A stretch of 46,662 nucleotides of DNA from Gammaproteobacteria bacterium. GTDB taxonomy: Bacteria; Pseudomonadota; Gammaproteobacteria; Xanthomonadales; SZUA-5. The stretch's first letter is position 1; each line of letters begins with the position of its first letter. Positions 4,539 to 44,774 of this stretch are shown piece after piece. The notes below the pieces were generated by a model. It was not told the DNA's origin. It saw only the letters and a list, made by a program, of their open reading frames with translations, and searched no databases. The DNA lies in contig JAUIFV010000015.1 of the NCBI GenBank assembly GCA_030430155.1, forward strand, positions 1 to 46,662. Reading direction: 5' to 3'. A program made the position numbers and the translations under genes.

Positions 4539-6266
4539 ATGCTGAAACGATTCGCGCTGGCGACGCTGTGTTGCATTGGCGTGCTGGAGGCATTGGCTGA
4601 GCCTCTTGACGACCGCCTGCAGCGCGCCGATGAGAACAAGCGCAATGACTTTGCTGCCTTCCTCGACGACCTGGGCTGGCTGGAGCAGCATCAGGGCGTA
4701 ATGAGTCCTGCGCAACGTGATCATCTGCGCTATTTGATGGGCTGGAAGGCCACCTTTAGCGGTGACTACGAAGCTGCTATCGCCGAACTGCAGCCACTGG
4801 GCGCGGTCGCGGTTGATCCCGTTATCGCCTTTCGCAGCCGCATCACCTTGATCAACGCACTAACCCTGAACCAGCGATTCGTTGAAGGCTATCAACAGCT
4901 CTATCTGTTGCTCGAACAGCTGGAGATACAAACTGATCAAGGCGCACGAGCACAGGCCCTGGGTGTGGCCTCGCAGCTCTACCATCTCGCCGGTCAGCAC
5001 GAAGAGGCGATGCGCCTGTCGACGCAACTGCTGGCTGAAACCGAATTGCCGTGGGCACGCTGTGGAGCACTGGCGTTACGCTACGACGCCGCGGTTCGCG
5101 CCGGTCAGCTGACCGATGTGAGCGCCGAACTGGATCAAGACATTGCCGCCTGCAGTGGGGCGGGACAGGCGGTCTTCGCCGGCATCATGCGCTGCAACCA
5201 GTCGCAGCTGCACCTGAGCAACGGCCGGATCCAGGCCGCCATTGCAAGTCTAGAGCCCTTCGACGCCGAAATCGATGCCACTCGGTATGCCTACTTGCGT
5301 GCTGAGCGCTCCGTCCGATTGGCCAACGCATACCTGGCGCTCGGTGATCAGCGCGCTGCCCTCGCTCACGCTCAGAATGCGATTGAAGCCACCAGACCCG
5401 AAACCGATCCCGAGCCCCTGGCAGCCGCGTGGCGCCTGGTCGCTGAGATCGCCGAGCAGCGCGGCGACTACGAGCAGGCCCATGCCGCGCTCAAGCGCCA
5501 TAGCGGTATCGCCCGCGCTCACGCCGATGAAGCGAGTCGCCGCGCCCTGGCCTACCAGATGGCGCTGCATCGCACCCAGCTGCAAACGCTGCAGATCGAA
5601 GGTTTGAATCAGCAGAATCAGCTGTTGCGGCTCAACCAGGATGTGGCCAGCAGCGCTGCCAGCAACGCCCGGCTTTGGACCCTGCTGCTGCTCAGCGCGC
5701 TGATCTACGCCCTGATCTGGGGTTGGCGTTCGCGGCGCATGCGTAGCCATTACCAGCAGCTGGCACAAAGCGACTCGCTCACCGGCGCCGCTAGCCGGCC
5801 GCACTTCATGGCCGAAGCCAGCCGGCAGTTGCTCAAGGCCGAGGCCCGCGGACAGTCGGCCTGTCTGGTGATTATGGATCTGGACTTCTTCAAGTCGGTC
5901 AACGACGAGTTCGGGCATAGCGTCGGCGATGCGGTACTGCAGCGCGCAATCCAAAGTTGCCTGCAGAGCGTGGCAATGGATCATCTGTTTGGGCGCTTGG
6001 GTGGCGAGGAATTCGCGATACTGATCATCAACCGTGAGCCGCAACAGGCTATGCAGCTGGCCGAGAGTCTTCGTCTGACGGTCAATGAGGTCAGTTTTGG
6101 CGACGAGTCCAATCCGCGCCGGCTGGCCGCAAGCTTCGGTGTCGCCATGAGTCAGGATCACGGCTACCAACTGGCCAACTTGTTGATCGCCGCCGACACC
6201 GCGTTGTATGCAGCCAAGCGACAGGGGCGCAATCGGGTGGTCAGCGCGGGCGCCGCGAACGACTAG
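4539..6266 (+). CDS. Periplasmic-sensor diguanylate cyclase with TPR-like repeats
   Basis: 575 residues from the ATG at 4539, chosen because a signal peptide follows directly (KRFALATLCCIGVLEALAEP); an earlier in-frame GTG at 4458 adds 27 unconvincing residues. Residues of about 25-370 are helical with TPR-like pairs (for example AGQHEEAMRLSTQLLAE and DYEQAHAALKRHSG) and should be periplasmic. A helix near 385-400 (LLLLSALIYALIWGW) crosses the inner membrane, followed by a basic stretch. The C-terminal GGDEF domain starts at SDSLTGAASR and carries an intact GGEEF active site (RLGGEEFAIL) and DLDFFKSVND. It should make c-di-GMP. No RxxD inhibitory site is evident. The signal sensed is unknown. 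Confidence 0.88.
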   Translation: MLKRFALATLCCIGVLEALAEPLDDRLQRADENKRNDFAAFLDDLGWLEQHQGVMSPAQRDHLRYLMGWKATFSGDYEAAIAELQPLGAVAVDPVIAFRSRITLINALTLNQRFVEGYQQLYLLLEQLEIQTDQGARAQALGVASQLYHLAGQHEEAMRLSTQLLAETELPWARCGALALRYDAAVRAGQLTDVSAELDQDIAACSGAGQAVFAGIMRCNQSQLHLSNGRIQAAIASLEPFDAEIDATRYAYLRAERSVRLANAYLALGDQRAALAHAQNAIEATRPETDPEPLAAAWRLVAEIAEQRGDYEQAHAALKRHSGIARAHADEASRRALAYQMALHRTQLQTLQIEGLNQQNQLLRLNQDVASSAASNARLWTLLLLSALIYALIWGWRSRRMRSHYQQLAQSDSLTGAASRPHFMAEASRQLLKAEARGQSACLVIMDLDFFKSVNDEFGHSVGDAVLQRAIQSCLQSVAMDHLFGRLGGEEFAILIINREPQQAMQLAESLRLTVNEVSFGDESNPRRLAASFGVAMSQDHGYQLANLLIAADTALYAAKRQGRNRVVSAGAAND

Positions 6267-6430
6267 CGAATCGCGCACCAGCATGCTGTTTCACACATGT
6301 TGAGCTGGTTCCGATGGATTGTCCTGAGGCAGGCGAGAGCAGGAGGCATGCACCGCCTTGGCGACGACGAGCATCGCCGCAGGGGATGGCTCACCAGCGG
6401 TCGGTTCAACGTGGGTGAAACCACACCAGG

Positions 6431-6600
6431 GACTCCCTGAACCATGCACTTGGCCGCGACGGCAGCTCCATGTCTCGGATTCGCCAGCAAGGCGGGCATC
6501 GGCGCGCACAGCCTGTGCTCTGGGCAAGGCCCAACGCAGCTGGCGGCTACTCAGCGGCTGTCCGCTGAGTTCTGGAGGTCCAGCGTGCTGCGGCCTTAAG
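6431..6600 (+). repeat. Dispersed intergenic repeat, copy 1
   Basis: The gene-free stretch 6267-6660 shares blocks with 10082-10283. Block A: GACTCCCTGAACCATGCAC (6431-6449) against the same with one change at 10082-10100. Block C: CTCCATGTCT (about 6466-6475). Block D: CGCCAGCAAGGCGGGC (6482-6497), inverted in copy 2. Block B: about 38 bases at 6557-6594, also inverted in copy 2. The mixed orientation suggests a mosaic or rearranged non-coding element. No transposase frame is present. Confidence 0.5.
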
Positions 6601-6628
6601 TGATCTGCAGACAGTCACCGGCGGTAAA

Positions 6629-6653
6629 CCTGCCCGGCACGGGGCCGGGCAGG
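6629..6653 (-). terminator. Strong hairpin after the DUF5648 gene
   Basis: A 10-bp perfect stem CCTGCCCGGC/GCCGGGCAGG with a 5-base loop lies 8 bases past the stop at 6661. On the minus strand it is followed by only TTTA, so it may be a weak intrinsic terminator or a 3'-end stabilising hairpin. Confidence 0.6.
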
Positions 6654-6660
6654 ACTGCGG

Positions 6661-7857
6661 CTACGGCAACCAGTGCACCGCTGCATTGGTGACGTAGAAG
6701 GTGAAGTCGCTTTGATTGTCGGTGGCGTGACCGAAGAAGTAGCCGGTCAAGTCTGACGGGAACGGGCTGTAGTCCGGGTAGAAACCGGCCGCATGCCAGT
6801 TGCCGACTGCCATCAGGGCATTGGTGCCGAGGTCGCGAATGGTGTAGGACAGATGGCCACCGTCGGTCACCGTCATCACCATCCGGTACTCTCGGTTGTT
6901 GCGCAAATCGCCGAAGCTTTGGGTCGGCGGAACGACGTGATTACCGCTAGCCCACCACGCCTCCTGGCCAACTTGAGTGCCGCCGCAGCGCGCGCAGGTC
7001 TGGCCAAAGATGATCACGCCCAGGGCTCGGTGCCAGGAGCAGTTCGGTGCGGTCACGCCGTTCGGGCAGACGTTGTCGACGTGCGGTCGACCAACGTTGA
7101 GCGTGCCGTGGCCGCCGAAGATCAGATGACCGGTGCCGCCGAAGAAGTCAGGCGTGGTGAACGTCAGACTGATGCGCTGACGGGTGTAGCCAGCCGGCCG
7201 GGGCGTGCTGGGAACCAGCCGATGGGGGAAGTAGTAGTCCCGGTGGTTGGCTGGCTGGGCGCCATCCCAGCAGCGCCCCGGAACCGACGAAGGGCAGCGC
7301 AGGCCGGCAACCCAGCCGTTGCTGACATAGGGATAGGGTCCCGCGTTGACATAGCCGGCGATGCCGTCATAGCCCCAGCCCTGCCCGCGCAGGGTGTTCA
7401 CCTCACTGTAGCTACGGGTGTATTTGTGGACCAGGTCCGAGGTCTGCGGATTAAAGCGGTTGACCCGGTACAGCGGGACGCTGCCGGGTACCCGAGTCGT
7501 ATAGATGTAGCCCTCGACTCGTTCATAGACCCAGCCCATGCTGAGCACGAGCGCCTCTTCATTGGCATCGGCGGTGTAGAAGTGATTGCGCTGCGGCAAG
7601 CCCTTGTAGAAGCGCTTGAAGGGCCGGGTATTCGGCTGCTGCTTGGCTTCCAGATAGGCAACGGGGCCGGTGTTTCTATAGCCATGGATGGTGGTGGCCT
7701 GCTGCAGCTGTTGCGAGTCGACGGTGTAGAAGTTGTCGTTGACCGCGCTGCTGTAGGCTGAGTACAGCGGCACAAACGGGGGCTTGTTGTTGAGCGGTAC
7801 GGCCATCGCCTGCGCGGTCAGCAGCGCAGCTGCGAGGATAAGTATGAGTCGTTTCAT
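6661..7857 (-). CDS. Secreted DUF5648-type repeat protein
   Basis: 398 residues from the ATG at 7857, chosen because MKRLILILAAALLTAQAMA is a clean signal peptide; a frame extension to 7917 is unlikely. The N-terminal ~170 residues hold three copies of a ~45-residue module with aromatic and Gly landmarks: FVPLYSAYSSAVNDNFYTVD, then HFYTADANEEALVLSMGWVYE, then LYRVN followed by GQGWGYDGIAGYV. This is the DUF5648 pattern (PLYR..., HFYT..., GW.YEG), found in secreted proteins of unknown role. The second half has Trp/Gly-rich beta segments and paired cysteines (CPSSVPGRC, CARCGG) and looks like a lectin- or glycanase-like beta fold; I cannot name it. Monocistronic, with a hairpin at its 3' end. 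Confidence 0.78.
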   Translation of the reverse strand: MKRLILILAAALLTAQAMAVPLNNKPPFVPLYSAYSSAVNDNFYTVDSQQLQQATTIHGYRNTGPVAYLEAKQQPNTRPFKRFYKGLPQRNHFYTADANEEALVLSMGWVYERVEGYIYTTRVPGSVPLYRVNRFNPQTSDLVHKYTRSYSEVNTLRGQGWGYDGIAGYVNAGPYPYVSNGWVAGLRCPSSVPGRCWDGAQPANHRDYYFPHRLVPSTPRPAGYTRQRISLTFTTPDFFGGTGHLIFGGHGTLNVGRPHVDNVCPNGVTAPNCSWHRALGVIIFGQTCARCGGTQVGQEAWWASGNHVVPPTQSFGDLRNNREYRMVMTVTDGGHLSYTIRDLGTNALMAVGNWHAAGFYPDYSPFPSDLTGYFFGHATDNQSDFTFYVTNAAVHWLP

Positions 7858-10311: not shown

Positions 10312-11589
10312 TCAGAACTCGTAGCGCGCCTCGAAACGCAGCTGCTCTCCGCCGGTCTGCAACGGTATCGCCAACTCTCCCGCCCCGGGGCGCCGCCCGT
10401 CCACATAGAGCAGCTCCATACCCAGCCGCCATGGTCCGGCGTAGCGGATCGCGGCCAGGGTCAGGGCCCAGCCTTGCTCTTCGTTGTTCTCAGCGATGGT
10501 CTGGTCGATGTCGTCAATGTCGAAGCCTTCGACGCGAACGCTGTAGCGCCAGGGGTCGGCGCCGTAGCTGGCCAGCAGGTAGGCGGTGTAGAAGCGGATG
10601 TGTGCCTTGGGCAGACCGGGGATACCCATGCGGCTGTCGCCGCCCAGCGCCTCGGCGGCATAGCCCCAGCCCTCGGCCAGGGCGTTGTGCTCGAAGCCGG
10701 CGAGCAGGAAGCGGGTGCGCCAGGCGTACTCACCGTCGTGCAGGCCCAGATCACCGCGAGTGTCGACGGCGGTGAGCATCCAGGTCTGTTTCTCGGTACT
10801 CCAGCGCGCGCGCAAGGCGTAGCCGGGGCGGCCATCCAAATCGGCGCCGAAGGGGGTCGTGCCGTTATCGTCCTGATCGCCGAAGATCGCCGGATCGCCC
10901 AGCGAGGCCAGCGGCGGCAGCGGCAGGGTTTCGCCGTAGTAGCTCAACCGGTCGTGCCAGGCGAAGCCGCGCCAGGCCAGCAGCGCGCCGCTGGCGTCGT
11001 TGTTGCCGAACACGGTGGCGCCCAGCTCCAGCCTGCGCTGATTGTCGAATTCTCGGCGCCAGCTTAGGTCCACGCCCAGCGGCCGCAGCTCCTCGCCTAT
11101 CCAGCTGTTCAGGGCCGAATGGGTCAGCGTGTAGGGGCTGACCCAGAGCCTTTCGACGTTCTCCCTGGAGGTGGGCAGGAAGGATTGTCCGACGCGCAGC
11201 TGCCAGCGCTGATCGGTACCGAACCAGCGCCGCTGCACGAAGGCCTCAACCACACCCACATCGCGTCCGACCGCGCTGCTCTCAACGCGCGCGCCCAGGT
11301 GCAGCTGGGCGGACCACTCCAGGCCGTGGCTGGCCTCTATTAACAGCCGGCTTTCGCCACCGATGCCAAAAACGGCATCGCCATCGGCGTCGCCCTCCAG
11401 AAACCGGCCCAGACCGCGGTCGGTCCAGGCGGCCGGCGCGTCGCTGATGCTGCCGCGCGCGGCAACGAAGCCCAGCACTTCGACCTCGGCATGGGCTGGA
11501 TGACTTGCTGCGACCAAGGCCAAAGCCGAGAGGGTCAGACTACGAGCGTCGAAACTCATTCGCCTGGCGAACGACGACCCGCTACGCAC
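10312..11589 (-). CDS. Outer-membrane porin-like beta-barrel protein
   Basis: 425 residues from a GTG at 11589; GGAGG lies 8 bases before it and it overlaps the arsS stop by 8 bases. An ATG at 11559 (MSFDARSLTLSALALVAASH) is an alternative start and would also give a good signal peptide, cleaved near PAHAEV. The mature part is a series of alternating amphipathic strands rich in aromatic residues (RWQLRVGQSFLP, GYALRARWSTEKQTWML) and ends RFEARYEF, with a terminal Phe as in outer-membrane barrels recognised by BamA. I cannot assign a substrate. Overlap with arsS suggests co-translation and perhaps a role in moving an arsenic- or sugar-type compound, which is inference. Confidence 0.75.
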   Translation of the reverse strand: MRSGSSFARRMSFDARSLTLSALALVAASHPAHAEVEVLGFVAARGSISDAPAAWTDRGLGRFLEGDADGDAVFGIGGESRLLIEASHGLEWSAQLHLGARVESSAVGRDVGVVEAFVQRRWFGTDQRWQLRVGQSFLPTSRENVERLWVSPYTLTHSALNSWIGEELRPLGVDLSWRREFDNQRRLELGATVFGNNDASGALLAWRGFAWHDRLSYYGETLPLPPLASLGDPAIFGDQDDNGTTPFGADLDGRPGYALRARWSTEKQTWMLTAVDTRGDLGLHDGEYAWRTRFLLAGFEHNALAEGWGYAAEALGGDSRMGIPGLPKAHIRFYTAYLLASYGADPWRYSVRVEGFDIDDIDQTIAENNEEQGWALTLAAIRYAGPWRLGMELLYVDGRRPGAGELAIPLQTGGEQLRFEARYEF

Positions 11590-12544
11590 TCAGCGCCCCT
11601 CCGCAGCTGGAACCCTGCCCGGCGGTACAGCCGTAGCAGTGATCGGCGACACCTATGGCACGCTGATTCAGATCCACATTGAGCAGATCGCGCAGATGCA
11701 CCGAGCTGGCGCTGGCGCCCAGCGGTAGGCCGAGCATCTGATTGAAATCGCAGTCGTAGACGTAGCCCTGCCAGTCCACGCTGATCAAATCACGGCACAT
11801 GACCGCGTCCAGATTGTCGTCACGATGGGCGCCCTTGAGCAGGCTCATGTACTGCTCGAAGGTGCCTTTGCTGACCAGGGTGCTGCCGAAGCGCTTGATC
11901 GGCATGTTGGCCAGGGAAAACAGCTGATTGAAGACCAGCCCGAAGTGTTCGCCTAAGAAGGCCTTGTAGTCGGCCTCCAGCGCGCCCTGCGGCGGCGGCA
12001 GACTGGGACCCAGCGGGTTGTAGACCAGATTCAGGATCAGCCCGGAGCCTTCCACTCCGTAGCCCAGCGCATTGAGTCGCTGCAGCACCCGCACCGAAGA
12101 GGCGAACACGCCGTTGCCGCGCTGCTGATCGACGTTCTGCTCCAGATAGCAAGGCAAGGAGGCCACCAACTCGACTTGGTGCAGGGCAAAAAACTCCGGC
12201 AGATCGGTGTAGCCCGGCTCTTCGACAATGGTGGGATTGAGCCTGTCCATCACCGTCACGCCGAGGCCCCGAGCGCGCTCCACCAGCGAGCGGAAGTGCG
12301 GATTCATCTCCGGCGAACCGCCGGTCAGATCGATGGTCTGGATCCGCTGCTTGCGCAGGAACTCCACCACCAGGTCGATCTGCTCGGCGCTCATCAGTTC
12401 CTTGCGATTGGGCCCTGCGTTGACGTGGCAGTGCAGGCAGGCGAGGTTGCACAAATAGCCCAGATTGACCTGCAGCGTGCTCAGCGGGCGCCGCTTGATC
12501 GCGGGAAAATCGCTATTGGCCAAACGCGGCCAGGTATCGTGCAT
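11582..12544 (-). CDS. arsS: Arsenosugar biosynthesis radical SAM protein ArsS
   Basis: 320 residues. ArsS acts on methylated arsenic, attaching the 5'-deoxyadenosyl group of SAM on the path to arsenosugars. The radical SAM 4Fe-4S motif CNLACLHC is at residues 32-39, followed by LTGGSPEMNPHF. The C-terminus DHCYGCTAGQGSSCGGALS is the characteristic Cys-rich tail of this family. Length is normal. The usual partner, the arsenic methyltransferase ArsM, is not in this window. The downstream gene is a porin that overlaps the stop codon. Upstream lies only the heptamer array and lptE. Confidence 0.88.
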   Translation of the reverse strand: MHDTWPRLANSDFPAIKRRPLSTLQVNLGYLCNLACLHCHVNAGPNRKELMSAEQIDLVVEFLRKQRIQTIDLTGGSPEMNPHFRSLVERARGLGVTVMDRLNPTIVEEPGYTDLPEFFALHQVELVASLPCYLEQNVDQQRGNGVFASSVRVLQRLNALGYGVEGSGLILNLVYNPLGPSLPPPQGALEADYKAFLGEHFGLVFNQLFSLANMPIKRFGSTLVSKGTFEQYMSLLKGAHRDDNLDAVMCRDLISVDWQGYVYDCDFNQMLGLPLGASASSVHLRDLLNVDLNQRAIGVADHCYGCTAGQGSSCGGALSA

Positions 12545-12699
12545 GGCATCCCCCGAGATGGTGGCCGACCGGCATCAACCCAAGCGTAGCTTTGCTGCGG
12601 TCGAGGCTTGATCAATTTTCGACTAGACCGTCGCAGGGTTGGATCCCTTTCGCAATTCGCGCTGGACCTCCGCGTTAGCGGGGGAGACGGGAATTCTTC

Positions 12700-12942
12700 T
12701 GGGCCCTGGGCCCTGAGCCCTAAGTCCGCCAAGAGCGCCGCAGAGACCCGCCGCGCGCAGATCGCCACGCTACGCTGACCTCCCTGATCTTCTGGGCCCT
12801 GTGCCCTGTGCCCTGTGCCCTGGGCCCTGAGCCCTAAGTCCGCCAAGAGCGCCGCAGAGACCCGCCGCGCGCAGATCGCCACGCTGCGGTGACCTCTCTG
12901 CTCTACTGCGCCCTGTGCCTTGCGCCCTGTGCCCTGTGCCCT
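12700..12942. repeat. Heptamer array L2 with 114-bp direct duplication
   Basis: This fills most of the gap between arsS and lptE (12545-12954). Runs of GNGCCCT (GGGCCCT, GTGCCCT, GAGCCCT) alternate with a conserved spacer that starts TAAGTCCGCCAAGAGCGCCG. The spacer occurs twice, at 12721 and 12835, nearly identical for over 50 bases, so the unit is tandemly duplicated with a 114-base period. The last heptamers end about 15 bases from the lptE stop. Confidence 0.85.
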
Positions 12943-12954
12943 GCTCCCCGGCCC

Positions 12955-13449
12955 CTACTCGGCAATCCGCGAAATCCGCTGCAGCACCCGCCGCGCCGCA
13001 TCCCGGGTCAGCTCTTCGCGGATCAGCGCCTCTTCCTGGCTGGCGCCGATCGCCGCCAGCTCGTCGAAGGCATAGTCGCGACTCAGCGCGAACTCCTCGT
13101 TGCTCAGCAGTTCCTTGCCGCTGGCGTCGCTGAGGCTGTAGCTGATACGCAGTTCCAACTCATACTCGGAGACCCGGGCTCGCTCGTCGACCGCCAGCAC
13201 CCGGCGATCGAAGCGTTCGCTCTGTATACGCAGCAGCGCCGCATCGCTTTGAACCAGCTGCGCTCCGGCCTGGACCAGTTCGCGCTCGATCTGTCGCGAC
13301 AGCAGCCCCAGCGGATCGGCCTGTTCGACCTGAATACGCTTGACGGTGAGCGGCAGGGGCGTGGCCTGACGCAGCTGAAAGCCGCAGCCGTTCACGCTGA
13401 GCAGAGCAACCAGGAGGAGGATAGGGGCGAGCTTGGGGCGATTGAGCAT
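12955..13449 (-). CDS. lptE: LPS-assembly lipoprotein LptE
   Basis: 164 residues from the ATG at 13449; a start at 13488 would put 13 extra residues before the signal. LptE plugs the LptD barrel in the outer membrane and delivers lipopolysaccharide to the surface. The lipoprotein signal MLNRPKLAPILLLVALLSVNGC ends in a lipobox with the lipidated Cys at 22. The mature N-terminus GFQLRQATPLPLTVKRIQVE is the LptE signature (CGFxLRG...P). It is the last gene of the miaB-to-lptE run; in E. coli lptE instead follows leuS. Confident from the N-terminal pattern. Confidence 0.85.
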   Translation of the reverse strand: MLNRPKLAPILLLVALLSVNGCGFQLRQATPLPLTVKRIQVEQADPLGLLSRQIERELVQAGAQLVQSDAALLRIQSERFDRRVLAVDERARVSEYELELRISYSLSDASGKELLSNEEFALSRDYAFDELAAIGASQEEALIREELTRDAARRVLQRISRIAE

Positions 13450-13520: not shown

Positions 13521-14723
13521 TCAGTCCGATTCACCGCGCTGGGAGCGCATCCGCCAGGCCAGCATCAGCACCGGCGGCATGCTCAGCCACAGCCACTCCC
13601 AGTTCTGCTGCGACAGCATCGGCAGCACTTTCAGCACCAGTCCGGCCAGTGCCAAACCCAGCGCCAGGCGCAGACCCAGCTGCGCGACGCGTCCACCGCG
13701 GGCGTACAGCGCCGGGATGCTGAGCAGCCACAGCGGCGAGTACAGCAGCAGATTCTCGTTGCGCTGCGCGGCCCAATGGTCGGTGAAGCACAGGCCCAGC
13801 AGGACCAGCCCGATCAGGCCCCAGAGCAGCCCGCTGGCGGCTCGGATGATGGCCCCGGCGCGGCCGGGCAGGCGCAGCAGGGCGGCCCAAAGCAAACCAA
13901 CCGCCAGCCACCAGCCCCAAGTCTCCGGAAATGCGCCCGGCTGCGGCCAGTCACCGCCCAGCACGCGGTCTTCGACCACCAGCGGATAGCTGCCGCCGGC
14001 AGCGTTGCTCAAGTACAGCTCGCCGACCCGATCGGCCAGCTGGGCCGGCATGAACTGCTCGTCCCACAGCGAAATCGGGCGGTCCACCGGCTGTCCCAGG
14101 CCCAGATGGGTGCCCACAAACAGCCAGGGCTCTGGCACGGTGGCGAGCATGGTGAAGTCGCGATAGCTCAATCCGCGCGAACGCCCGGCGGTCTCGCGCT
14201 TGAGCAGCCCGCCCAGCGCCGCGTCAATGGCATCGCGCACCTTGGTCGAACAGTTGTTGCGGTAGTAGTCGTAGCGATACTCGCTGTTCTCCGGCTGCAC
14301 GTGCTCACGCAGCGCCGCATCCAGCGCGCGGAGCGCATCGGCACCCATCTGCAGCCGCTGCAGGCGCACCGCCCTGCCCTGCTCCAAATAGCCGGCCAGA
14401 TCCAGGTCGGCATCCAGCGCCAGCGCCCGATAAAGCATGCGCCCGCGGACGAAGCGAAACAGAAAACCGGACTGCTCAAAGTCGAAATAGCCGAAGTTGT
14501 AGCTGATCCGACGGCCATCGTTGTAGCTGACGATCAGCGCGTTGTGGCCAAAGCGCTCCCAGTAGATCTGACCGGGGGCTGCGGTCATCAGGTCTACACT
14601 GACCGCGGCCAATGGGGGTCGGTCGGAAGCGGCCGGCGTTGGCGCCTGAGCAACGGCAGCGCCCGTCCAGATCAGCAGCAGGGCCAGCGCAGCCCCGCGC
14701 AGTGCCGAACGGGCTGAGCTCAC
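13521..14723 (-). CDS. Lnb-like (DUF4105) membrane protein in the usual lnt position
   Basis: 400 residues: a signal or anchor helix (about 9-25), a periplasmic domain (about 35-270), then about four membrane helices (about 280-390). The periplasmic domain has the DUF4105/Lnb signature: ERFGHNALIV with His60 and YDYYRNNCSTKVRDAID with Cys158, a His/Cys pair like that used by Lnb of Firmicutes. Lnb moves an acyl chain within the lipoprotein N-terminus to make lyso-form lipoproteins. The start codon overlaps the corC stop by 4 bases, so the two are translationally coupled. In many proteobacteria corC is followed by lnt. The acyl-transfer function is inference; DUF4105 proteins of Gram-negatives are poorly studied. 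Confidence 0.8.
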   Translation of the reverse strand: MSSARSALRGAALALLLIWTGAAVAQAPTPAASDRPPLAAVSVDLMTAAPGQIYWERFGHNALIVSYNDGRRISYNFGYFDFEQSGFLFRFVRGRMLYRALALDADLDLAGYLEQGRAVRLQRLQMGADALRALDAALREHVQPENSEYRYDYYRNNCSTKVRDAIDAALGGLLKRETAGRSRGLSYRDFTMLATVPEPWLFVGTHLGLGQPVDRPISLWDEQFMPAQLADRVGELYLSNAAGGSYPLVVEDRVLGGDWPQPGAFPETWGWWLAVGLLWAALLRLPGRAGAIIRAASGLLWGLIGLVLLGLCFTDHWAAQRNENLLLYSPLWLLSIPALYARGGRVAQLGLRLALGLALAGLVLKVLPMLSQQNWEWLWLSMPPVLMLAWRMRSQRGESD

Positions 14724-15583
14724 GCCGATTCGGCGAATTCAGCCGGCGGCCTGACGTGCAGCAGCACCACCTTGCGCTGGTCGGCCTTGGCGACCTCGAA
14801 GCGATAGCCGGTCAGCTCCAGCGATTCTCCCGATTCGGGCAGGTGCCCAAAGGCCTGGGTCACCATGCCGCCGACGGTGTCGAACTCGTCGTCCGGGAAC
14901 TCGCACGAGAAGTGCTCGTTGAAGGACTCGATGGGCGTCAGTGCCTGGACCAGGAAAACGCCATCGCCGCGCTCACTGATCTGCACTTCGGGCAGATCCT
15001 CGGCGTCATGCTCGTCGTCAATCTCGCCGACGATTTCCTCCAGCACGTCCTCGATGGTGATCAAGCCGGCAACGCCGCCGTACTCATCCACCACCAGGGC
15101 CAGATGCTGGCGATTGACCCGGAAATCCTTGAGCAGCTCGTTCAGCCGCTTGCTCTCCGGAATCAGATCCAGCGGCCGCAGCATGGCCTTGAGATCCAGA
15201 TCCCCGCCCTTGGCGAAATGGCGCAGCAAATCCTTGGCATGCAGCATGCCGAGAATTTCGTCGGGGTCGTCGCCGTGGACCGGAAAACGCGAATGGCCGG
15301 ATTCGACCACCGTGTTCATCACCTCGTCCAGGCTGGCGTCAGCGGCAATGGCAACGATCCGCGGGCGCGGAATCATCACGTCTTCGACGCGCTTTTCGGA
15401 AACGGTAATCGCGCCTTCGAGCATGCCCAGGGTGTCGGCATCCAACAGCCCGTTGTCCCGGGCGGCGCGCAGTTCATCGATCAGTTGGTCACGGCTCCGG
15501 AGTTCACCCGACAGCACCGAAGCGATGCGGTCGAGCCAGGATTTACCTCCAGAACCGTTACTAGAGGGGGTGTCCTCGCTCAT
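14720..15583 (-). CDS. corC: CorC/YbeX CBS-domain protein
   Basis: 287 residues. Order: short polar N-terminus, two CBS motifs (VEDVMIPRPRIVAI near 66-80 through EILGMLHAKDLL near 110; DLIPESKRLNELLKDFR near 140 through VDEYGGVAGLITIEDVLEEIVGEIDDEHD near 175-195), then a C-terminal CorC_HlyC domain from about 205. There is no transmembrane DUF21 domain, so it is the short cytosolic CorC form tied to Mg/Co homeostasis and, with YbeY, to ribosome maintenance. Fourth gene of the miaB operon, 350 bases after ybeY, with a heptamer array in that gap. Confidence 0.92.
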   Translation of the reverse strand: MSEDTPSSNGSGGKSWLDRIASVLSGELRSRDQLIDELRAARDNGLLDADTLGMLEGAITVSEKRVEDVMIPRPRIVAIAADASLDEVMNTVVESGHSRFPVHGDDPDEILGMLHAKDLLRHFAKGGDLDLKAMLRPLDLIPESKRLNELLKDFRVNRQHLALVVDEYGGVAGLITIEDVLEEIVGEIDDEHDAEDLPEVQISERGDGVFLVQALTPIESFNEHFSCEFPDDEFDTVGGMVTQAFGHLPESGESLELTGYRFEVAKADQRKVVLLHVRPPAEFAESA

Positions 15584-15721: not shown

Positions 15722-15920
15722 GAGGGCCCAGGGGAGGAGGGCCCAGGGCCCAGAGGAGCCAAGATCGGAGCGCGGAGCTGCTGTGCTCTCCTGGGCCCTA
15801 GGCCCTGTGCCCTGGGCCCTTTGGTTAGGCCAACGCAGGGCCCAGAAGAGCCAAGATCGAAGCGCGGAGCTGCTGTTGCTCTTCTGGGCCCTGGGCCCTG
15901 GGCCCTGGGCCCTGGGCCCT
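15722..15920. repeat. Heptamer array L3: two potential stem-loops
   Basis: This lies between corC and ybeY (gap 15584-15933). Left arms of AGGGCCC face right arms of GGGCCCT. The right end is five perfect tandem GGGCCCT units at 15886-15920. Two cores are near-identical: CAGAGGAGCCAAGATCGGAG at 15761 and CAGAAGAGCCAAGATCGAAG at 15843, each followed by GCGCGGAGCTGCTG and a CTCTCCTG/CTCTTCTG that pairs with the core start. The array ends 13 bases from the ybeY stop. Confidence 0.85.
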
Positions 15921-15933
15921 CTCCCCGCAACCT

Positions 15934-16377
15934 TCAAGCGTACGGATCCCCGATTCCCATCCCGGCCATAATCTGCCTCTCCAACGCCTCCATCACCCGT
16001 GCCTGGGCCTCATGCTGGTGGTCATGACCAAGCAGATGCAGTACGCCGTGGACGGTCAGATGCGCATAGTGGTGACGGCTGGATTTGTTCTGCTCGGCGG
16101 CCTCGCGTGCCACTACCGGCGCGCAGATCACCAAATCGCCCAGCCAGCGTTGACCCTCGATCTCCAGCTCGGCCGGAAAGGACAGCACGTTGGTGGCGTA
16201 GTCCTTGCCCCGCCAGTCGCGGTTGAGCTGGCGCCCTTCCTCGGCGTCGACCAGCCGCACGCACAGCTGACCGCCTTCGCCGACGTGCTCCAGAGCCGCC
16301 TGAGCCCAGCGGCGAATGCTCAGCGCTGCCGGCAGCCCGCGTCGCGGCAGGCCGTACTGGACGCTGATCTCGCTCAC
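15934..16377 (-). CDS. ybeY: Endoribonuclease YbeY (16S rRNA 3'-end maturation)
   Basis: 147 residues, usual length. The zinc site [11 protein letters not shown] gives His110, His114 and His120. The segment [10 protein letters not shown] is the other family signature. YbeY is a metal-dependent RNase involved in 16S rRNA maturation and ribosome quality control. Its start overlaps the ybeZ stop by 4 bases (ATGA). The C-terminus is followed at once by heptamer array L3. Confidence 0.95.
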
Positions 16378-17396
16378 GATGACGCGGCCGGCGGCTCGGC
16401 GGGCTTGGACTCGCCCTGTTGCTCGAAGCGGGCGTAGGCCTGCACCACCTTCTGCACGATCGGATGCCGCACCACGTCGCCGGATTGGAAGAAGGTGAAG
16501 CTGACCCCCTGCACTTCCTTGAGCACCTCGATGGCCTGACGCAAGCCGGACATGCTCTTGCGCGGCAGATCGATCTGGGTGACGTCGCCGGTAACCACCG
16601 CGGTGGAGCCGAAGCCGATGCGGGTCAGGAACATCTTCATCTGCTCGATGGTGGTGTTCTGCGCCTCGTCGAGAATGATGTAGGCATCGTTGAGGGTGCG
16701 ACCGCGCATGTAGGCCAGCGGCGCCACTTCAATGACGTTGCGCTCGATCAGCTTGCCGACCCGCTCCAGACCCAGCATCTCGTAGAGGGCGTCGTACAGC
16801 GGGCGCAGATAAGGATCGACCTTCTGCGCCAGATCGCCGGGCAGAAAGCCCAGTTTCTCGCCGGCTTCCACCGCTGGCCGGACCAGGATCAGCCGCTGCA
16901 CCCGCTGCGTCTCCAGCGCCTCCACCGCGCTGGCCACGGCCAGATAGGTCTTGCCGGTGCCGGCCGGGCCAACGCCGAAGTTGATGTCGTGGGTGGCGAT
17001 GGCGTGCAGGTAGCGGCGCTGATTGCCGGTGCGCCCGCGGATGGTGCCGCGGCGGGTCTTGATCAAGACCTCCTGCGCGGCTTCGGACTGCTGCTCATCG
17101 AGGCGCTCTGCGCCCAGCTCGGCAAGCAGCAGATGCACCCGGGCGTTGTCCAGCACCTCGCTCTCGGTCGATTCATACATCGCCAGCAGAGCGCGTTCGG
17201 CCAACTGCAGCGGCGCATCGGCGCCGGTGACCTCGAAGATGTGGCCGCGATTGCGCAGCTGCACGCCCAGGCGCAACTCCAGCATGCGCAGATGCTGATC
17301 AAAGGGACCGCACAGATTGGCCAGCCGCTCGTTGTCTTCCGGGGTCAGCACCAGGGTCTTGACCGCCAGCTCGCCGACCTTTTGCACTGCGCTCAA
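16374..17396 (-). CDS. ybeZ: PhoH-like ATPase YbeZ
   Basis: 340 residues from a TTG at 17396 whose last two bases belong to the miaB TGA; AGGAGG lies 4 bases upstream. A GTG at 17387 is the alternative. The open frame runs back into miaB to 17540, but that part is an out-of-frame reading of miaB. Walker A GPAGTGKT is at 143-150, followed by [20 protein letters not shown] and the Walker B-like [12 protein letters not shown] typical of PhoH proteins. The N-terminal ~110 residues are a KH-like segment. YbeZ works with YbeY in rRNA processing. Coupled on both sides within the operon. Confidence 0.93.
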
Positions 17397-18757
17397 GCGG
17401 CCTCCTGGTCGCGGTCGATGACCACCCGCCCGCGCAGTGAATTGGCCAGCGCCTCGGTGATCTCGATATCGACGAAGTGACCGACCAGACGCGGCGGACC
17501 GTCGAAGTTGACCACCCGGTTGTTTTCGGTGCGGCCGCACAGCTGCTGCGGATTCTTGCGGCTCGGCCCCTCCACCAGCACCTGCTCGACGCGGCCCACC
17601 ATGGCCTTGGAGATGGCGCGCGCCTGCTTGTCCAGCAGCGCCTGCAGCCGCGCCAATCGGGCCTTCTTCTCTGCCATGGTCACCGGATCGGGCAGGTTGG
17701 CGGCCGGGGTGCCGGGGCGCTTGGAGTAGATGAAGGAGAAGCTCTGATCGAAACCGATGTCTTCCACGAGTTTCAAGGTGGCGGCAAAGTCGGCCTCGGT
17801 TTCGCCGGGAAAGCCGACGATGAAGTCCGAGGAGATGGTGATGTCCGGCCGCACCTTGCGCAGCTTGCGGATCTTCTGCTTGAACTCAAGCACGGTGTGG
17901 CCGCGCTTCATCGCCGCCAGGATGCGGTCGGAGCCGGCCTGCACTGGCAGGTGCAGGTGATTGACCAGGGTCGGGGTTTCGGCAAAGGCCTGCACCAGCG
18001 AGTCGTCAAACTCCAACGGATTGGAGGTGGTAAAGCGGATCCGCCCGATGCCCGGCAGCTGGGCGACGAACTGGATCAGCAGACCCAGATCACAGACCCC
18101 GCCGTCTTCCATCGCGCCGCGATAGGCGTTGACGTTCTGCCCCAGCAGGGTGATCTCCTTGACCCCCTGCTCGGCCAGCTGGGCGACCTCGGCAATCACA
18201 TCGTCGAAGGGACGCGAGATCTCCTCGCCGCGGGTGTAGGGCACCACGCAATAGCTGCAGTATTTGCTGCAGCCTTCCATGATCGAGACAAACGCGGTCG
18301 CGCCTTCGGCGCGCGGCTCGGGCAGGCGATCGAACTTCTCGATCTCGGGGAATGAAATATCCACTTGGCCACGCTGACCGCCACGAGCCTGCTCGACCAT
18401 CTGCGGTAGTCGGTGCAGGGTCTGCGGACCGAAGACCAGATCGACGTAGGGCGCACGCTGAATGATCGCCTCACCTTCCTGCGAGGCAACGCAGCCGCCG
18501 ACGCCGATGACCAGCCCCGGATTGGCCTGCTTGAGGCTCTTCCAGCGGCCCAGCTGCGAGAACACCTTCTCCTGCGCTTTTTCGCGGATCGAGCAGGTGT
18601 TGATCAGGATCACGTCGGCCTCGGCCTCATCCTGGGTCAGCTGCAGGCCGTGGGAGTCGGCGAGCACGTCGGCCATCTTCGACGAGTCGTACTCGTTCAT
18701 CTGACAGCCCTGGGTCTTGATAAACAGCTTGCGCGGCTTGGCTGGGGAGCTTTCCAT
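17393..18757 (-). CDS. miaB: tRNA-2-methylthio-N6-isopentenyladenosine synthase MiaB
   Basis: 454 residues. MiaB adds the methylthio group to i6A37 in tRNA. N-terminal cluster ligands are Cys18, Cys55 and Cys89; the radical SAM motif CSKYCSYC is at 163-170 in the typical [19 protein letters not shown]-terminal TRAM domain starts near 375 ([21 protein letters not shown]). First gene of the miaB-ybeZ-ybeY-corC run, so the promoter should lie in 18758-18891, a gap shared with the divergent transglycosylase gene. Confidence 0.96.
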
Positions 18758-24550: not shown

Positions 24551-24631
24551 AGGGCCCAGGGCGCAGGGCCCAGGGCCCAGGAAAGGCGCGCTCCGACGGA
24601 CGTGGGCCCTGAGCCCTGGGCCCTGTGCCCT
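24551..24631. repeat. Heptamer array L5: single clean stem-loop between regulator and kinase
   Basis: Left arm AGGGCCC/AGGGCGC/AGGGCCC/AGGGCCC at 24551-24578; right arm GGGCCCT/GAGCCCT/GGGCCCT/GTGCCCT at 24604-24631; a core of about 25 bases between. The arms pair along about 28 bases with few mismatches. The array ends one base before the TAG stop codon of the regulator gene (24633). Confidence 0.88.
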
Positions 24632-24632
24632 G

Positions 24633-26989: not shown

Positions 26990-27010
26990 GGGCCCTGGGC
27001 CCTGTGCCCT
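26990..27010. repeat. Heptamer array L6
   Basis: Three tandem units GGGCCCT/GGGCCCT/GTGCCCT, right next to the REP-like hairpin and 52 bases from the lipoprotein stop at 27063. No left arm is visible here. The remaining part of the gap 26717-27062 holds the sigma-54 promoter and the dyad. Confidence 0.75.
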
Positions 27011-44612: not shown

Positions 44613-44774
44613 AGGGCCCAGGGCTCAGGGCCCAGGGCCCAGAAGAGCAAGGGCCAAAGCCGGCGACCGCTGTTGTTTTACTGGGCCCGATTGACGGCAG
44701 GTCCAGCGCCCAAAACAGCCAAAGCGCCGTGAGCCGTTGCCTTTCTGGGCCCTGGGCCCTGAGCCCTGTGCCCT
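44613..44774. repeat. Heptamer array L7 between rpmE2 and the exporter
   Basis: Left arm AGGGCCC/AGGGCTC/AGGGCCC/AGGGCCC at 44613-44640 and right arm GGGCCCT/GGGCCCT/GAGCCCT/GTGCCCT at 44747-44774, with two partial cores between (AGAAGAGCAAGGGCC at 44641 and CAAAACAGCCAAAGCGCCGT at 44711). It ends 37 bases from the exporter stop at 44811. This fills most of the gap 44514-44810, where no gene is visible. Confidence 0.85.

Follow-up and report, generated by a model that had tools for sequence, protein, structure and literature searches.

An Lnb-like DUF4105 protein behind corC as the probable replacement for Lnt in Xanthomonadales

In Gammaproteobacteria, Lnt is regarded as the usual enzyme for the third step of lipoprotein maturation, and it is under discussion as a target for antibacterials; Lnb was reportedly published in 2024 (PNAS). 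The window analyzed here, a whole stretch of 46,662 nucleotides from an uncultured member of the Xanthomonadales (=Lysobacterales), carries a DUF4105 gene behind corC, in the slot of lnt, and so raises the question of what this gene does there and what has become of Lnt in the order.

The corC neighborhood in the window and in relatives

The minus strand of the window carries miaB, phoH/ybeZ, ybeY, corC, the DUF4105 gene, and lptE in that order (Table 1), and the order and coordinates of miaB-ybeZ-ybeY-corC, first read from the letters alone, were confirmed. The listed 5′ end of ybeZ/phoH is overlong, and the true start of this gene is probably further in than the listed open reading frame. 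The DUF4105 gene begins with GTG and shares 4 nt (GTGA) with the TGA stop of corC, bearing out the proposed coupling of the two genes. The listed lptE open reading frame reaches TTG 13488; ATG 13449 opens a lipoprotein signal peptide with the lipobox VNGC, and lptE then lies 71 nt downstream of the DUF4105 gene.

Table 1. Coordinates of the genes discussed (window positions unless a contig is named)
Feature	Position	Strand	Basis or remark
miaB	17393-18757	-	translation; used as query, gave the same order in relatives
ybeZ/phoH	16374-17540	-	PhoH PF02562, 320 bits
ybeY endoribonuclease	15934-16377	-	TIGR00043, 145 bits
corC/hlyC-type CBS gene	14720-15583	-	CorC_HlyC and CBS domains
lnb-like gene (DUF4105 / Lnb_N + 5TMH), 400 aa	13521-14723	-	PF13387, NF051878, invariant residues, AlphaFold2
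lptE, LPS-assembly lipoprotein gene	12955-~13449	-	LptE PF04390, 56.2 bits
divergent Lnt-like gene, 517 aa	contig C169 of the window's genome (G000), 5525-7075 (L178)		

Downstream of lptE lies a gene for an ArsS-type radical SAM (seleno)protein (11582-12544, minus strand; TIGR04167, 447.7 bits). The window also contains dispersed intergenic arrays of GGGCCCT-type heptamers (12692-12956, 15725-15934, 24551-24632, 26990-27009, and 44613-44766), partly inside longer units of 92-114 bp; the pattern GGCCCTGGGCCC has 38 matches with at most 1 mismatch where 1.2 are expected, and the corC-lnb-lptE unit is flanked on both sides by such arrays.

The nearest relatives with a name belong to the Lysobacterales (Lysobacter, Luteimonas, Silanimonas, Arenimonas, Dyella, Rhodanobacter, Luteibacter, Dokdonella, and Tahibacter) together with uncultured bins. 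In 70 of the best 80 named loci corC is directly upstream of the DUF4105 gene, at a median distance of -4 nt, a recurrence which argues that the adjacency is not due to chance; the 10 loci without it belong to 8 Gemmatimonadota, one Phycisphaerales, and one Steroidobacteraceae bin. The sequence-only reading had also pointed to lptE as the following gene, which is true of the window, but the search detected no homologue of lptE next to the DUF4105 gene in the best 80 named loci, and the position of lptE immediately 3′ looks local to the window's genome. In a tree rooted only at its midpoint, the Gemmatimonadota copies cluster together, beside several uncultured Xanthomonadales families. An apparent absence of PF13387 from both genomes of the window's own genus was rejected, as a search with corC and lnb found fragments attributable to contig breaks in fragmented bins: one genome (G001) retains a C-terminal piece of lnb, 70% identical, and the other (G002) a corC, 85% identical, that continues 17 residues into lnb.

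Domains, invariant residues, and predicted fold

Residues 39-176 of the DUF4105 protein match Pfam Lnb_N (PF13387) with 57.2 bits (cut-off 22.2; E=2.1e-15), and residues 39-343 match NCBIfam NF051878, "lipoprotein N-acyltransferase Lnb", with 125.3 bits (E=2.7e-36); because the latter score does not reach the equivalog cut-off of 550, we call the protein Lnb-like, or an Lnb-family homologue, rather than a strict NCBI equivalog. It consists of a signal or transmembrane helix (residues 3-23), a periplasmic permuted NlpC/P60-like domain (~40-255), and C-terminal membrane helices (~270-399). The window protein itself scores 17.7 against the 5TMH_Lnb profile, under the cut-off of 25.2, with helices predicted after residue 270; its relatives match this profile in 52 of 52 cases at E<=0.01 (best 5.1e-12), and all 52 also match Lnb_N and NF051878 (best 1.9e-61 for the latter). 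Judged by these profile matches, the homology to Lnb is full length and includes the membrane domain.

The sequence-only reading singled out His60 (FGHNA) and Cys158 (NCST) as a catalytic pair, and both residues are indeed present and invariant, in 20 of 20 and in 52 of 52 aligned relatives; in the membrane region, His316 and Asn322 are likewise invariant in the aligned relatives. In a confident AlphaFold2 model built from the 52 relatives (pLDDT 93.0, pTM 0.87), an N-terminal helix is followed by a periplasmic domain of mixed alpha/beta structure, in which a strand begins at His60 and a helix at Cys158, and then by the C-terminal membrane helices. The best PDB match of this model in Foldseek is TseH (6v98), a permuted NlpC/P60 protein (prob 1.00, E=0.011, TMt 0.47), and model and match together place the catalytic His before the Cys, as in the permuted NlpC/P60 (papain-like) superfamily. 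This agrees with the assignment of DUF4105 to the same superfamily in PMC12994826. A search of solved structures by sequence found no relative of the Lnb-like protein.

The same reading went astray in speaking of a Firmicute Lnb that performs intramolecular acyl transfer: Lnb is a Bacteroides lipoprotein N-acyltransferase that adds a third chain (PMC13103446, PMC13251419, PMC12994826), and intramolecular transfer describes Lit, the intramolecular lipoprotein transacylase found in Firmicutes. Bacteroides Lnb (PF13387 plus PF25221; NF051878) resembles the window protein in its Lnb_N and five-helix membrane domains, in its His/Cys pair, and in the absence of a normal Lnt, whereas the window protein is gammaproteobacterial, scores far under the NF051878 equivalog cut-off, and has its gene behind corC, where lnt would otherwise stand. 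With Escherichia coli Lnt (TIGR00546) it shares the operon place after corC and the predicted step following Lgt and LspA, but Lnt has a nitrilase/CN-hydrolase fold with a Glu-Lys-Cys triad and no sequence similarity to the Lnb-like protein.

A second, very divergent DUF4105 paralogue of 427 aa is encoded elsewhere in the window's genome (contig C240, 36032-37165; L002, 1180-2463, plus strand). It keeps YGHSA and NCTT motifs and has a tree branch of 3.0; its gene lies away from corC, preceded by a kinase-like gene and by genes for two small proteins that look secreted.

Distribution of lnb and lnt

Among 250 Xanthomonadales genomes, each at least 90% complete, we found a corC-type lnb in 247, a Lnt-like protein over the cut-off in 28, and, at 1e-15, no match resembling Lnt in 190. 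These counts go back to what is essentially a single evolutionary switch and do not amount to independent trials. The 3 genomes without lnb are exactly the 3 that have a canonical Lnt of ~300 bits. In two genomes without lnb, both from family f7, the canonical lnt lies immediately 3′ of corC, so that the DUF4105 gene can rightly be said to stand in the lnt slot. The third, an apparent member of the order in which lnt follows corC and lnb is absent (G026, family f9; L172), was rejected and left out of the evidence because its gene order, tsaB-rimI-plsC-miaB-phoH-ybeY-corC-lnt-xre-metK-trmB, is one that we take to be of the alphaproteobacterial type; this genome is probably misassigned.

Across the class, Lnt is present in 258 of 276 Gammaproteobacteria (TIGR00546 scores are ~300-356 bits in most of those outside the order), and lnb only in the 4 Xanthomonadales sampled, all of which lack Lnt at 1e-25; the 18 genomes without Lnt at this threshold include these 4, and many of the others are small genomes of 0.3-2 Mb. 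Eighteen genomes behind named loci were also searched. Those of Dyella jiangningensis, Luteimonas gilva, Luteimonas abyssi, and Dokdonella immobilis carry lnb but gave no match to Lnt-like proteins at 1e-15, and in the complete genome of D. jiangningensis corC is followed by lnb. Outside Xanthomonadales the exclusivity of lnb and Lnt is not strict, unless the bins are mixed, because 2 of the 8 lnb-bearing Gemmatimonadota bins (G532, behind L124, and G534, L139) also carry a canonical Lnt of 270-291 bits. By extension from the order-wide survey, Xanthomonas itself would be expected to carry lnb, none of the genomes searched being identified as Xanthomonas by name.

The window's genome (5.06 Mb, 96.6% complete) encodes both Lgt and LspA. 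A genome-wide search for a normal lnt, as the sequence-only reading had proposed, found none: the best TIGR00546 match, a divergent Lnt-like protein on contig C169, reaches 72-75 bits, below the cut-off of 132.9. That reading had wavered between an alternative and an added step; because 190 of the 250 order members are without a Lnt-like protein at 1e-15, replacement is the likelier of the two. The occupation of the corC slot by lnb in one set of genomes and by canonical lnt in the two f7 genomes, together with the complementarity of the two genes across the order, makes an in-place swap the best explanation.

Lnb itself, and the displacement of Lnt by DUF4105 as a pattern, are already published. 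According to PMC12994826, there are three gene contexts in which DUF4105 and Lnt displace one another, and like corC-lnb and corC-lnt they alternate in a conserved neighborhood; the text of that paper names neither Xanthomonadales nor corC nor ybeY, and its figure could show a corC context. Our literature search, the reach of which did not include the founding Lnb paper, returned no paper linking Lnb to Xanthomonadales.

Lipoprotein N-acylation and the candidates for it

We conclude that the DUF4105 protein is very probably the Lnb-type lipoprotein N-acyltransferase of the order, and that it replaced Lnt both in its job and in its chromosomal place in an ancestor of the Xanthomonadales. Somewhat less surely, but still probably, the in-place swap from Lnt to Lnb happened once and holds order-wide, with Lnb alone responsible for N-acylation; the published diacyl-only Xanthomonas anchors would then be wrong. 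Reasoning from the fold and the invariant residues, we infer the substrate, the phospholipid donor, the direction of transfer, the Cys158 thioester, and the essentiality of the enzyme in a pathway of the following kind: i) Lgt and LspA would first yield S-diacylglyceryl apolipoprotein at the inner membrane; ii) His60 of the membrane-anchored papain-like (permuted NlpC/P60) domain would activate Cys158; iii) an acyl chain would move from a membrane phospholipid onto Cys158 as a thioester; iv) Cys158 would hand this chain to the alpha-amino group of lipoprotein Cys+1; and v) the resulting N-acyl (triacyl) lipoproteins would enter the Lol pathway.

Should Lnb do the job of Lnt in Xanthomonadales, inhibitors aimed at Lnt would be expected to fail in this order; the "missing Lnt" of Xanthomonas would be explained and a published gap filled for a whole order, with N-acylated lipoproteins predicted, opposite to PMC10368991; and LolA/LolB models using diacyl anchors would need revision. 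We would then be dealing with a clean non-orthologous replacement within one operon slot, and corC-lnt and corC-lnb would form a paired system for probing what makes the two enzymes interchangeable.

Alternatively, though we think it improbable, the lipoproteins of Xanthomonadales could be diacylated only, and the DUF4105 protein could be a phospholipase or an acyltransferase on another substrate, like TseH or Tox-Act1. This would fit both the report that Xanthomonas campestris (Xcc) B100 is without Lnt, for which reason a 2023 paper modelled diacyl anchors (PMC10368991), and the fact that the nearest solved fold is that of the TseH effector. TseH and Tox-Act1 do share the permuted NlpC/P60 catalytic fold and the His-before-Cys order, but they are secreted effectors found in conflict-system contexts and without an Lnb-type membrane domain, unlike the window protein with its full-length homology to Lnb. 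Moreover, lnb is nearly fixed in the order (247 of 250) and sits in the lnt slot, the sole two trustworthy genomes without lnb have lnt in that same slot, and the 2023 study sought Lnt alone, predating the reported publication of Lnb in 2024.

For the window's genome only, the Lnt-like protein encoded on contig C169 might be the working Lnt and lnb an accessory. This protein matches the lnt profile near full length (74.7 bits, against 132.9) and LNT_N weakly (24.3, against 27.1), under both cut-offs, and it keeps Glu, Lys, Glu, and Cys at the canonical catalytic positions, aligned with the invariant E271, K327, E335, and C378 of L039. Going by these residues it may have a role in acyl transfer, and because it keeps them lnb may not act alone in this genome. 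However, the protein is without a segment aligned to GEYFPFRRWLELLP and without the SNDAWF motif of canonical Lnt, its gene lies outside the housekeeping context, and proteins of this kind have a patchy distribution in the order, where lnb is nearly universal, all of which makes a working Lnt on C169 unlikely. On the same strand and a few nt away (C169, 7082-8392) is a gene for a secreted-looking protein of 437 aa that matches nothing in Pfam, and the two possibly form a dedicated substrate pair.

Least credible is a Lit-like enzyme that shifts an acyl chain within one lipoprotein to give lyso-form N-acyl S-monoacyl lipoproteins, which would likewise supply the N-acyl group of Lnt, and for which the donor is not readable from sequence; but Lit, although it too makes N-acyl lipoproteins, is a different family that was described from monoderm bacteria (PMC13251419) and is matched in Pfam/NCBIfam neither by the Lnb-like protein nor by any of its 52 relatives, whose homology is to Lnb, reported in PMC13103446 to add a third chain.

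The order also has several kinds of Lnt-like protein. Most of those over the cut-off are ~830 aa long, with a C-terminal extension and mostly 166-209 bits; we rejected them as the Lnt of the order, since they are patchy and do not adjoin corC in the examined loci. Silanimonas lenta is one member that carries both lnb and a gene of this ~830-aa kind. The ~830-aa gene adjoins a GDSL/SGNH hydrolase gene in 3 genomes (L183, 2550-6944; L173, 2643-7312; L174, 3909-8235), with a small membrane protein gene between the two in 2 of the 3 (L173 and L183), which suggests a separate, dedicated function, and the protein possibly acylates something besides housekeeping lipoproteins. A third group comprises Lnt-like proteins of ~480-580 aa and mostly 65-114 bits. 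Several genomes of family f12 have such a protein of ~480-540 aa, encoded near a TetR-type regulator at two of the loci (L176 and L177; G177 and G096).
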